Below, piece after piece: positions 25,328 to 28,676 of a stretch of DNA of 47,866 nucleotides. Made by a program: the position numbers and the translations under genes. The notes under the pieces are model-generated. The model was not told the DNA's origin, did no database searches, and saw nothing but the letters and a program-made list of their open reading frames with translations. Positions within the stretch are counted from its first letter, which is position 1; each line of letters begins with the position of its first letter. This DNA comes from Alphaproteobacteria bacterium (GTDB taxonomy: Bacteria > Pseudomonadota > Alphaproteobacteria > ATCC43930 > CGMCC-115725): NCBI GenBank assembly GCA_030041335.1, contig JASHOB010000035.1, positions 1 to 47,866 on the forward strand, in the 5' to 3' direction.

Positions 25328-25981
25328 TCAAATGCGGGTGAGCGCCTTAAGTGCCGCGCCCAAGAGCCCGACGCCCGACACCGCAAGAATGCCGCCCGAA
25401 ATGCGGTTGAGCCAGGCGAGGTGGAAGCTGCCGGCGAGACGCTGCAGCCAGAAAAGGCCAAAACTCAAGCCCAACCACCACACCAGCGAACCCGCAAACA
25501 CGCCCAACACCAGCATGCCGAGCGTGAACATCCCGGCGCTTTCGGCGACGCCGACCTTGGCGAAGATTGCGGCGAAGGCGAGAATGGTGATCGGATTGGT
25601 GATGGTGAGGGCAAACGTCGAAAAATAAGCCGTGAAGCGCCGTTCACCGGAAAGCGGCACGGTTTCGCGCTCGGTCGGCGGCACCAGCAAGGTACGCACG
25701 CCGACGATTACCAGGAAAATGCCGCCAGCGGCGCCGAACCAATCCTGATAGGAGAGCAGCCAGTCGCGCAGAAAGGTCAGACCGGCGGCGGCGATGACGC
25801 CGAAGATGGTGTCGGCGGTGGCGGCGCCAAGGCCGGAGATGAACCCATAGACCGGACCTTCGAACACGGTGCGGCGGACACACAGGACGCCGACGGGTCC
25901 GACCGGCAACGCAATCACGATACCGATGGCGACGCCCTTCAGGAGCGCGATCAGCAGCAACGCCGCCGGCAATAGAGGCAT
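25328..25981 (-). CDS. LysE/RhtB family amino-acid exporter
   Basis: The 217-residue protein has about six hydrophobic segments. The LysE signature begins GVAIGIVIALPVGPVGVLCVRRTV (split over about 14-38), followed by GFISGLGAATADTIFG and the central ALTITNPITILAF motif. Family members export amino acids such as lysine, homoserine or threonine; the substrate cannot be read here. The ATG at 25981 is used; a longer TTG start lacks support. It precedes the MscS-type gene by 9 bp, so efflux and tension release may share regulation. Confidence 0.9.
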   Translation of the reverse strand: MPLLPAALLLIALLKGVAIGIVIALPVGPVGVLCVRRTVFEGPVYGFISGLGAATADTIFGVIAAAGLTFLRDWLLSYQDWFGAAGGIFLVIVGVRTLLVPPTERETVPLSGERRFTAYFSTFALTITNPITILAFAAIFAKVGVAESAGMFTLGMLVLGVFAGSLVWWLGLSFGLFWLQRLAGSFHLAWLNRISGGILAVSGVGLLGAALKALTRI

Positions 25982-26098
25982 GCCCGGCAGTCTCAGGGAT
26001 GCGTCTCGTTGGCGCAACGGGAAATAGGCGATCCGTTGCCCTTGTTTGTGGTAGCGTCGCGCTACCGACGCACAGGCACCGCCTGCCGGGCGATTAAG

Positions 26099-26239
26099 AT
26101 GATCGGGATTGAAGAGCCTTCATGCCGGCTTGCAGCCATCCTTGCCGCGGATCGCGCGGGCGATGCGCACGCGCTCGGCGAGGATGCTGCCGCCCGCAGC
26201 GCGCACGGCCGCGCGACGGTTCGGAGGATCGGGGCATGA
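26099..26239 (+). pseudogene. Mini-ORF repeating the N terminus of the class III cyclase domain
   Basis: This 46-codon frame encodes a peptide whose residues 10-30 (CRLAAILAADRAG then LGED) closely match the first residues of the next gene (RRLAAILAADVAG then VGDD), including the metal-binding Asp of class III cyclases. Similarity fades after about 30 residues. The shared codons differ mostly at third positions, so this is not a recent tandem copy. The frame ends in a TGA overlapping the cyclase ATG (ATGA at 26236-26239). It may be the remnant of a second cyclase gene or a coupled leader peptide; I favour a remnant. Confidence 0.5.
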
Positions 26240-28152
26240 ACGAGGCGCGACGCCTAGCGGCAATTCTGGCCGCCGACGTTGCCGGCTACTCGCGCCTCGT
26301 CGGCGACGATGAGGAAGGCACGGTCGCACGGCTGAAGTCGATCCGGGCCACGATCGTCGATCCCAGCATCGCCGCCAATCACGGCCGCATCGTCAATACC
26401 GCCGGCGACAGCGTGCTGGCCGAGTTTGCCAGCGTCGTCGACGCGGTCCGCGCCGCCCTCGCGATCCAGAGCGAGATCGCTCAGAACAACGCGCCGGTGC
26501 CGCCCGACGAGCGGATCGAATTTCGCATCGGCATCCACCTCGGCGATGTCATGGTGCAGGCCGATGGCGACCTGCTCGGCGACGGCGTCAACATCGCGGC
26601 GCGGCTTGGAACCCTGGTCGGGCCGGGCGGCATCTGCCTGTCGGAGGATGCCGTCCGCCAGGTCGAGGGCAAGGTCGAAGCCCGGTTTACCGACGCCGGC
26701 AGTCGCGCGCTGAAGAACATCGCGCAGCCGCTGCGCGTCTACACCGCTCTCGCCGGCATCGACCGGCGTGCCAAGTCCAACGGCCGCGACGCCGCGCCCG
26801 GCCTGCGGCGCCGGCGCAGCCCCTTGCGGCTTGCCATCATTTTGGGCGCGGTGATTCTGTTCGTTGTCGGGAGCCGGGCCATCAACTTGTATTTCAATAA
26901 GGCCGGCGACACGGTCGCGCCGCGGCCGCTTGAACGGCTGTTGCAGCGACACGATGCGCCACGGTTTTCCATCGTGATCCTGCCCTTCACCAATCTTTCG
27001 GGCGATGCGAGCCAGGACTATTTCGCCGACGGCATTACCGAGAATCTGACCACCGATCTGTCGCAGGTCCCCGGCATGTTCGTGATCGCACGCAACACCT
27101 CCTTTTCCTATAAGGGAAAGGATATCGACGCCCGCACGATCGGCAGGGAACTCAATGTCCGCTATGTCTTGGAAGGCTCGGTGCAGCGCGATGGCGACCG
27201 GGTACGCGTCAATGCCCAACTGATCGACGCGGCGAGCGGCGCCCATCTTTGGGCCGACCGTTTCGACGAGGCAAAGGGCGATCTCTTTAAGCTTGAGGAC
27301 GAGATCGTGGCGCGTCTCGCCAACTCGCTCGGGCACGCCGTCGAGACGGTGGAAAGCGAGCGTGCCGTCAACACGCGCTCGCGCAATCCCGATTCGGCTG
27401 ACCTCACTTTGCGTGCCATGGCCGCAGACAATCAGTCGCAGTTGGGTAACGATCGCGACAAAGTCGCCGAGGCGCGTGCGCTCTACGGCCAGGCGCTTCA
27501 GCTCGATCCCAACAATTACCACGCCCTGGTTGGTTCTGCGTGGCTCGATGTCGAGGACGTCGCTTACGGTCACGCAGGGCCGGGCCAGATCAAGCACGGC
27601 GAAGATCTGGTCGAGCGCGCGCTGGCGCAAGCGCCGGGGCAGGCCGAGCCCTACGTCGCCAAGTCGATGCTGGCGCTCTTGTCGCGCCGGCCTGACGTGG
27701 CGGCGACCGAGGCGGCGCGCGCCATCGAGCTCGATCCCAACAACCCTAACGGCTATGGCGCGTTGGCCTGGGCGCAGACTCTGGCGGGCCATAACCAGGA
27801 AGCGCTTGCCGACATCGACAAGGCCATCGGCCTGAGCCCGCGCGATCCGGCGCTCGGATTTTGGCTCTATTTGCGCGGTGGCGCTCTGGTCAACCTCAAG
27901 CGCTATGACGACGCCGCCGCCGCCGAGCAGGCGGCGATCGACGCGCATTTCAGCGGCTCGCCCGCCTATCTCACCATGGCGGTCGCCTACGCACTCAAGG
28001 GCGATATCGCGAAGGCGCAGGCGGCAATTGCAGTGGTGCGCGAAGCCGATCCTCGTATATCCTTGAAAAGTCTGCACGCACTGAGCGCAACCACCGATTG
28101 GCCGCGTCCTTATTGGGAGGGACTGCGCAAAGCGGGATTGCCGGAGGGCTGA
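26236..28152 (+). CDS. Class III nucleotidyl cyclase domain, TolB-like domain and TPR repeat protein
   Basis: The 638-residue protein has an N-terminal class III cyclase homology domain (about 5-170), one membrane segment (about 198-213), a TolB/FlgO-like domain (about 243-345) with FSIVILPFTNLSGD, and TPR-type helices (about 400-630). Metal-site aspartates D14 and D58 are present, as are the transition-state pair N119/R123 and the substrate-selecting D112. The usual lysine before the second metal Asp is N54. This Asn is common in such CHD-TPR proteins, so activity is uncertain. The cyclase part would face the cytoplasm and the TPR part the periplasm. The glutathione peroxidase gene follows after 17 bp. 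Confidence 0.9.
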   Translation: MNEARRLAAILAADVAGYSRLVGDDEEGTVARLKSIRATIVDPSIAANHGRIVNTAGDSVLAEFASVVDAVRAALAIQSEIAQNNAPVPPDERIEFRIGIHLGDVMVQADGDLLGDGVNIAARLGTLVGPGGICLSEDAVRQVEGKVEARFTDAGSRALKNIAQPLRVYTALAGIDRRAKSNGRDAAPGLRRRRSPLRLAIILGAVILFVVGSRAINLYFNKAGDTVAPRPLERLLQRHDAPRFSIVILPFTNLSGDASQDYFADGITENLTTDLSQVPGMFVIARNTSFSYKGKDIDARTIGRELNVRYVLEGSVQRDGDRVRVNAQLIDAASGAHLWADRFDEAKGDLFKLEDEIVARLANSLGHAVETVESERAVNTRSRNPDSADLTLRAMAADNQSQLGNDRDKVAEARALYGQALQLDPNNYHALVGSAWLDVEDVAYGHAGPGQIKHGEDLVERALAQAPGQAEPYVAKSMLALLSRRPDVAATEAARAIELDPNNPNGYGALAWAQTLAGHNQEALADIDKAIGLSPRDPALGFWLYLRGGALVNLKRYDDAAAAEQAAIDAHFSGSPAYLTMAVAYALKGDIAKAQAAIAVVREADPRISLKSLHALSATTDWPRPYWEGLRKAGLPEG

Positions 28153-28169
28153 GATTTAAGGAGAATGGC

Positions 28170-28676
28170 ATGGCACAGAGCATCGCCGCCAAGGCACACG
28201 ACTTCTCTTTCACCACCATCGATGGCGGGCCGCTGCCGCTGGCGCAATTCCGGGGCAAGCTCTTGCTGGTGGTGAATACCGCATCGCAGTGCGGCTTCAC
28301 GCCGCAATACCGCGAACTGCAGGCGCTCTATGAAAAATACCGCAGCAAGGGTCTCACCGTGATCGGGGTGCCGTCGAACGATTTCGGCGAGCAGGAACCG
28401 GGGAGCAATGCCGAGATCAAAAAATTCTGCAAGGACAAATACGCCGTCGACTTCCCGCTCGCCGCCAAGGAAAAAGTCAGTGGTGCCGACGCGCACCCGT
28501 TCTATCAATGGGCGGCGAGCCAAGGCGGCGAAGCCGCAGCGCCGCGTTGGAACTTCCACAAATACCTGATCGGCCCCTATGGCGATCTCGCTGGTGTTTA
28601 CCCCACGCAGGTCAAACCCCTCGACCGCACCATCACCGACGATATCGACCGCTTCATCGCCACCTCGACGGCCTAG
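28170..28676 (+). CDS. Glutathione peroxidase (cysteine type)
   Basis: The 168-residue protein is a non-selenium glutathione peroxidase-fold enzyme. The catalytic tetrad is recognisable: C41 in NTASQCGFTPQY, Q75 in NDFGEQEPG, and W127-N128 in PRWNFHKYL. A second cysteine, C88 in KKFCKDKY, is where the resolving cysteine of thioredoxin-dependent members sits, so thioredoxin may be the real reductant. It reduces peroxides in the cytoplasm (no signal peptide). The ATG at 28170 follows AAGGAGA. It is likely co-transcribed with the cyclase/TPR gene. Confidence 0.95.
   Translation: MAQSIAAKAHDFSFTTIDGGPLPLAQFRGKLLLVVNTASQCGFTPQYRELQALYEKYRSKGLTVIGVPSNDFGEQEPGSNAEIKKFCKDKYAVDFPLAAKEKVSGADAHPFYQWAASQGGEAAAPRWNFHKYLIGPYGDLAGVYPTQVKPLDRTITDDIDRFIATSTA

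Follow-up and report, generated by a model that had tools for sequence, protein, structure and literature searches.

Organization of the locus

The window, that is, the whole stretch of 47,866 nucleotides that was analysed, corresponds to one whole contig of an assembly of 262 contigs and 5.17 Mb. Directly ahead of a gene for a class III adenylate/guanylate cyclase with TPR repeats lies a short open reading frame, here called the mini-ORF, which is translated as MIGIEEPSCRLAAILAADRAGDAHALGEDAAARSAHGRATVRRIGA followed by the stop codon (Table 1). The cyclase ATG occupies positions 26236-26238 and the TGA of the mini-ORF positions 26237-26239, both within one ATGA. An earlier note on this DNA had described this 46-codon frame and its overlap, and its coordinates all matched the re-read sequence. 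With a TTG start the frame extends back to 26009. The N-termini of the family agree with a cyclase start at 26236 (MNEARRLAAILAAD compared with MTESRKLAAILAAD, MSENRKLAAILAAD and similar), and translation of the cyclase most likely starts from its own Shine-Dalgarno-like GGAGG, which is spaced 8 bases from the ATG.

The left neighbour is presumably a LysE-like exporter gene (lysE), for which the ATG shared with relatives was used as start, the mechanical ORF reaching to 26017. The right neighbour is taken to be a glutathione peroxidase gene (gpx). The leader upstream of the mini-ORF contains a perfect inverted repeat, GGTAGCG-TCG-CGCTACC at 26050-26066, with no T run after it, which is a possible candidate operator. 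A 607-codon open frame runs antisense to the cyclase (26254-28077, minus strand) and is probably a by-product of G+C-rich codon use.

Table 1. Features of the locus and N-terminal cyclase stubs found elsewhere; locations without a contig label are positions in the window.
Feature	Location	Strand	Extent, basis or remark
LysE-like exporter gene (presumed), divergent left neighbour	25328..25981	-	ATG start common to relatives
Leader 5′ of mini-ORF	26027..26098	+	left limit set by eye
Mini-ORF, 46 codons	26099..26239	+	terminal TGA shared with cyclase ATG; sequence, ORF list
Probable cyclase-derived core, RLAAILAAD then R-A-G	26126..26161	+	firm portion of the probable relic; profile and score tests
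Remaining mini-ORF up to cyclase start	26162..26235	+	at best weakly cyclase-like
GGAGG, Shine-Dalgarno-like, for cyclase, within mini-ORF	26223..26227	+	sequence; putative role
Class III adenylate/guanylate cyclase domain and TPR protein, 638 aa	26236..28152	+	Pfam PF00211, TPR models
Glutathione-peroxidase-like gene (presumed), right neighbour	28170..28676	+	
Stub, own genome	C90:81822		residues 2-50; begins 5 bases past the end of a cyclase match
Stub, own genome	C86:6644-6876		residues 5-79, frame broken; directly behind a cyclase
Stub, own genome	C233:97552		residues 1-74
Stub, own genome	C259:6307		residues 3-39
Stub, own genome	C199:6356		about 16 residues, extended by the profile across a stop to 39; behind a C-terminal piece of a cyclase
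Stub, own genome	C93:9415		residues 1-37, eroded
Stub, relative	G002:C335		16 residues; ATGA overlaps stop of preceding cyclase
Stub, relative	G001:C353		residues 4-26
Stubs, relatives	G029:C40 (two), G017:C191, G027:C97, G027:C44		profile search
Stubs, relatives	G022:C87, G008:C38		from other searches

Similarity of the mini-ORF to the cyclase N-terminus

All nine residues of RLAAILAAD in the mini-ORF are identical to those of the neighbouring cyclase, and the codons agree at 9/9 first and second positions and at 1/9 third positions. The third-position divergence claimed earlier is therefore real, with 8/9 differing. Local alignment of the mini-ORF with cyclase residues 1-60 gave a score of 63, which was reached by none of 5000 codon shuffles, none of 5000 dinucleotide shuffles and, in a larger run, by 2 of 400,000 dinucleotide shuffles. 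The likeness to the cyclase start thus stands, and a score no better than that of shuffled sequence, named beforehand as the outcome that would speak against it, was not what was found. The same score was reached by none of 832 other 218-nt segments of the window and by none of the regions upstream of 136 other cyclases, where the best value was 43.

Scored with a profile built from the N-termini of other cyclases, the mini-ORF attained 14.5-15.4 bits, the next best among 141 other upstream regions having 5.1 bits. In a six-frame scan of the window with this profile only the cyclase (94.4 bits) and the mini-ORF (14.5 bits) exceeded 8 bits, and in a scan of 1.54 Mb, comprising the window and overlapping loci mostly chosen for cyclases, each of the distinct matches listed at 11-34 bits was judged to be a cyclase, whole or in part. 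Codons for RLAAILAAD, searched with AGR and TTR codons left out, were found 27 times across 39 family genomes (about 163 Mb by listed sizes), one of the sites being the mini-ORF (26126-26152). Each of the remaining 26 has the score of a cyclase N-terminus (38.7-121.7 bits, compared with 15.3 for the mini-ORF), and some of them are stubs or broken frames themselves; a control pattern with the nine residues backward was found at 0 places. It is thus confirmed that the likeness of the mini-ORF to the cyclase N-terminus exceeds chance.

Extent of the similarity

By sequence comparison, homology can be called firm only for RLAAILAAD plus the AG one residue later. The 11 residues after the D are, in register, weakly above chance (328 of 20,000 codon shuffles and 134 of 20,000 base shuffles as good), as are the corresponding 33 bases at the DNA level (374 of 20,000 base and 953 of 20,000 codon shuffles). 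No excess was seen for residues 4-11 after the D, for which 2313 of 20,000 shuffles were as good in register; these residues contain the LGED that the earlier note had counted into the likeness, so this part of its claim falls away while RLAAILAAD and AG are upheld. The motif YSRL is near-invariant among 128 cyclases (Y in 121, S in 124, R in 123 and L in 127), and the mini-ORF has DAHA in its place, that is, strongly constrained residues have been lost.

Taken as a whole, the mini-ORF matched its own cyclase weakly, with 16.3 bits (E 0.093 in its genome), and Ala/Arg/Asp/Gly-rich frames in other genomes, read as unrelated, reached up to 20.6 bits against it. Searches of Pfam and NCBIfam with the mini-ORF gave no family at E 10, the catalytic domain (PF00211) included, and a PDB search gave a single chance-level match (E 1). 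The G+C content at the three codon positions is 78/63/72% in the mini-ORF and 70/47/80% in the cyclase.

Among the own-genome DNA matches to the leader, the best 7 of 39 others were read and no cyclase was found. Outside the own genome, 14 listed family matches lie wholly before the cyclase start; three of them are cyclase starts (G018:C819, G062:C74 and G007:C79), and eight of the other eleven were read and are unrelated. The two best family DNA matches to the mini-ORF outside the own genome are unrelated. Three other possible sources of this DNA were rejected. The end of the mini-ORF was compared with cyclase C-termini, and 9380 of 20,000 codon shuffles did as well; the leader was compared with residues 61-638 of the cyclase, and 217 of 1000 shuffles did as well. 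For the gene found between lysE and gpx in other genera, two of its proteins were compared with the leader in six frames, and the score of 31 was reached in 770 of 1000 base shuffles with one protein and in 567 with the other.

The lysE-gpx gap in related genomes

In two genomes of the same genus (G002 and G003) the start of lysE faces gpx across a short gap without a cyclase, the contig of G002 ending inside lysE; the leader at 26027..26098 is absent from these empty sites. The identity of the glutathione peroxidase to that of the window is 81% in G002, 78% in G003 and 69% in G001. In G001 a cyclase with 66% identity over residues 239-638 stands before gpx, and its contig begins inside this cyclase. 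It is the only orthologous cyclase locus that was found, and its contig lacks the leader side. No second cyclase, intact or partial, was present at the orthologous place in G002 and G003, where no cyclase stands. A similar peptide, whose absence from relatives the earlier note had set against its reading, is indeed missing from these two genomes, yet the whole cyclase is absent there as well, and the missing peptide therefore does not discriminate. Loss of the cyclase in G002 and G003 and separate gains both fit its absence.

As an observation in its own right, the gap between lysE and gpx (25982-28169 in the window; loci L111-L117 and L119) is a variable slot that holds a cyclase, is empty or holds another gene. 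In five genomes of three other genera (G009, G010, G012, G018 and G019) a different gene is located there, which we take to encode a sulfite-oxidase-like molybdopterin protein, and in G007 the gap measures 274 bases.

Cyclase paralogs, arrays and stubs

The own genome (G000) contains 49 matches to the cyclase at E 0.001, including partial and distant ones. The nearest cyclase-TPR paralogs found are G001:C348 (66% over residues 239-638) and, in the own genome, G000:C253 (48% over residues 1-637). Six other N-terminal-only cyclase stubs are present in the own genome (Table 1), three of which (C90, C86 and C199) lie behind another cyclase or its end. The profile search for stubs covered 10 genomes, and the stubs of G008 and G022 came from other searches. 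Left out of the count were, in the own genome, C161 (internally damaged), C168 (contig edge) and C90:79290, as well as G018:C828 (pieces in two frames), G003:C12:4415 and weaker rows. The stubs end between about residue 16 and residue 79 with no clear cluster, and a preferred break point after codon 20 is not claimed. In G002:C112 (L337) cyclases follow one another head to tail, their matches being 2 bases apart (2059/2056 and 269/266).

A separate case was noticed in G001:C324 (L377, L386; minus strand from 1615), where a gene of 949 residues opens with 23 cyclase residues (MNTEPARKLTTILAADVAGYSRL). Behind them come a TIR domain (PF13676) and WD40 repeats. The start codon of this gene shares bases with the stop codon of a frame whose terminal AKAGLPEE looks like a cyclase C-terminus, and a cyclase stub appears to form the start of this otherwise unrelated TIR-WD40 gene. 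In the literature search, no title or abstract opening among the matches listed dealt with such cyclase stubs.

Origin of the mini-ORF

The mini-ORF is most likely a relic of the 5′ end of a second class III cyclase gene. Such a gene would once have stood in tandem directly before the present cyclase, and a deletion that began shortly within the upstream gene and stopped a little ahead of the downstream one would have left a stub, the downstream cyclase and its Shine-Dalgarno-like sequence. The mini-ORF would thereby keep the first codons of the lost gene through RLAAILAAD-AG, and the stretch between AG and the cyclase start would be eroded or foreign. This reading is favoured by the family-specific 9-mer, by the paralogs, abutting cyclases and N-terminal stubs in the genome and its relatives, by the weak in-register likeness after the D in protein and DNA, and by the three leader-only family matches that are cyclase starts. 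Given the background of stubs in the genome and its relatives, a further stub is much likelier than a coincidence of about 5 in a million. Several findings speak against it: no second cyclase was seen at the orthologous place (the G001 contig starting inside the cyclase and G002 and G003 being empty), no cyclase C-terminal trace precedes the start codon, the codon-position G+C of the mini-ORF is unlike that of the cyclase, unrelated frames resemble the whole mini-ORF no less than cyclases do, and its two best family DNA matches outside the genome are unrelated. Moreover, 9/9 residues are kept with saturated third positions and YSRL is then lost at once, which is odd for uniform decay, and a deletion junction soon after D-AG must therefore be assumed.

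That a G+C-rich frame beside a cyclase spelled RLAAILAAD by chance, and was picked in a by-eye scan of many genes, is very unlikely: although the likeness amounts to a single exact 9-mer with little around it, unrelated Ala/Arg/Asp/Gly-rich frames score higher against the whole mini-ORF, and a scan of many genes and windows would be expected to turn up rare coincidences, the alignment score was matched in just two of the shuffles of the larger run, the 39 genomes contain no other RLAAILAAD site outside a cyclase N-terminus or its stub while the backward control is empty, and the family leaves N-terminal stubs in this very genome. To the same small degree one may consider an old event in which slippage or unequal exchange duplicated some 100-140 bases at the 5′ end of the cyclase itself. 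The mini-ORF stands immediately before the cyclase on the same strand, and in a comparison of 60 bases the neighbour takes 11th place among 128 cyclases and agrees well after the D (20 of 33 bases; maximum 21, mean 14.2), which also speaks for self-duplication. Within the RLAAILAAD codons, however, the neighbour matches no better than cyclases in general, with 19 of 27 bases agreeing (mean 19.4, maximum 24). It shares one of nine third positions, compared with a mean of 3.95 for the 22 cyclases, itself included, that have these nine residues. For these reasons the comparison favours, without proving it, a separate paralog as the source over an old copy of the cyclase's own start.

The earlier note had offered a lost second cyclase gene or a coupled leader peptide; the 9-mer census, the stubs and the abutting cyclases argue for the former, and the latter gained no positive support. 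The least probable of the explanations considered is a functional role of the mini-ORF, as a leader peptide or upstream ORF whose translation would be coupled to that of the cyclase by termination and reinitiation at the ATGA. The frame is intact with an ATG start, and reinitiation may take place at the ATGA if the mini-ORF is translated, since ATGA pairs are often coupled: according to the available parts of one report, 13 of 14 overlapping gene pairs tested in Haloferax volcanii and E. coli were strictly coupled (PMC6728339). Against this, no purine-rich site was seen before the mini-ORF ATG in the inspected positions 26081-26102, the cyclase being preceded by GGAGG; the leader RNA does not fold unusually in its one minimum-energy fold (z -1.05; 27 of 200 shuffles fold as well); and nothing of comparable score to the mini-ORF lies upstream of 136 other cyclases. 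In addition, among the 324 ATGA sites of the window, counted on both strands, 55 terminate an ORF of at least 46 codons; of 77 aligned cyclase starts, 62 have the form xTGA, and 10 of these 62, the window's own included, terminate an ORF of at least 40 codons. Because such overlaps are common, a mini-ORF ending in the cyclase ATGA needs no selection, and because long open frames are common in G+C-rich DNA its frame remains open. Hardly more probable is the idea that cyclase 5′ ends act as portable translation starts, the first 16-40 codons of a deleted tandem cyclase persisting and starting or tuning the next gene via ATGA coupling; the TIR-WD40 gene of G001:C324 and the mini-ORF would be cases.

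Comparison with known systems

With the mini-ORF as a probable relic of a second cyclase gene, an odd reading frame is explained as probable debris of a cyclase family multiplying and decaying in the lineage. Similar remnants are found repeatedly in this genome and in related ones, and the mini-ORF therefore looks like ordinary genome debris; it is ordinary in itself, and the family-level pattern of stubs is mildly interesting. With N-terminal stubs of class III cyclases, some of them right behind another cyclase, in several genomes of one family, these arrays document on a small scale how tandem copies arise and are deleted. Evidence of expression should precede any annotation of such stubs as small proteins or leader peptides.

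Like leader peptides and coupled overlapping pairs, as described in the accessible parts of PMC6728339, the mini-ORF is short, lies upstream and has the ATGA overlap, but no unusual fold was seen in the one minimum-energy structure of its leader RNA, and no Shine-Dalgarno-like site was seen before its ATG at 26081-26102. With the class III cyclase-TPR paralogs it shares RLAAILAAD and AG in register; unlike them it is without YSRL and without a catalytic domain, and it therefore cannot be a working cyclase. Gene relics and truncated pseudogenes are, as far as the available parts of the sources go, a known kind in bacteria (PMC522871, PMC9336565), and a cyclase pseudogene has been described in M. 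tuberculosis and M. bovis, M. tuberculosis having 17 class III cyclases (PMC2447327, likewise in part). The mini-ORF differs from such relics in being very short and in a frame that overlaps the start codon of an intact paralog. It resembles them in being a shortened and eroding gene piece whose family has intact members elsewhere in the genome, and it is of the same kind as the six other cyclase stubs of its own genome.
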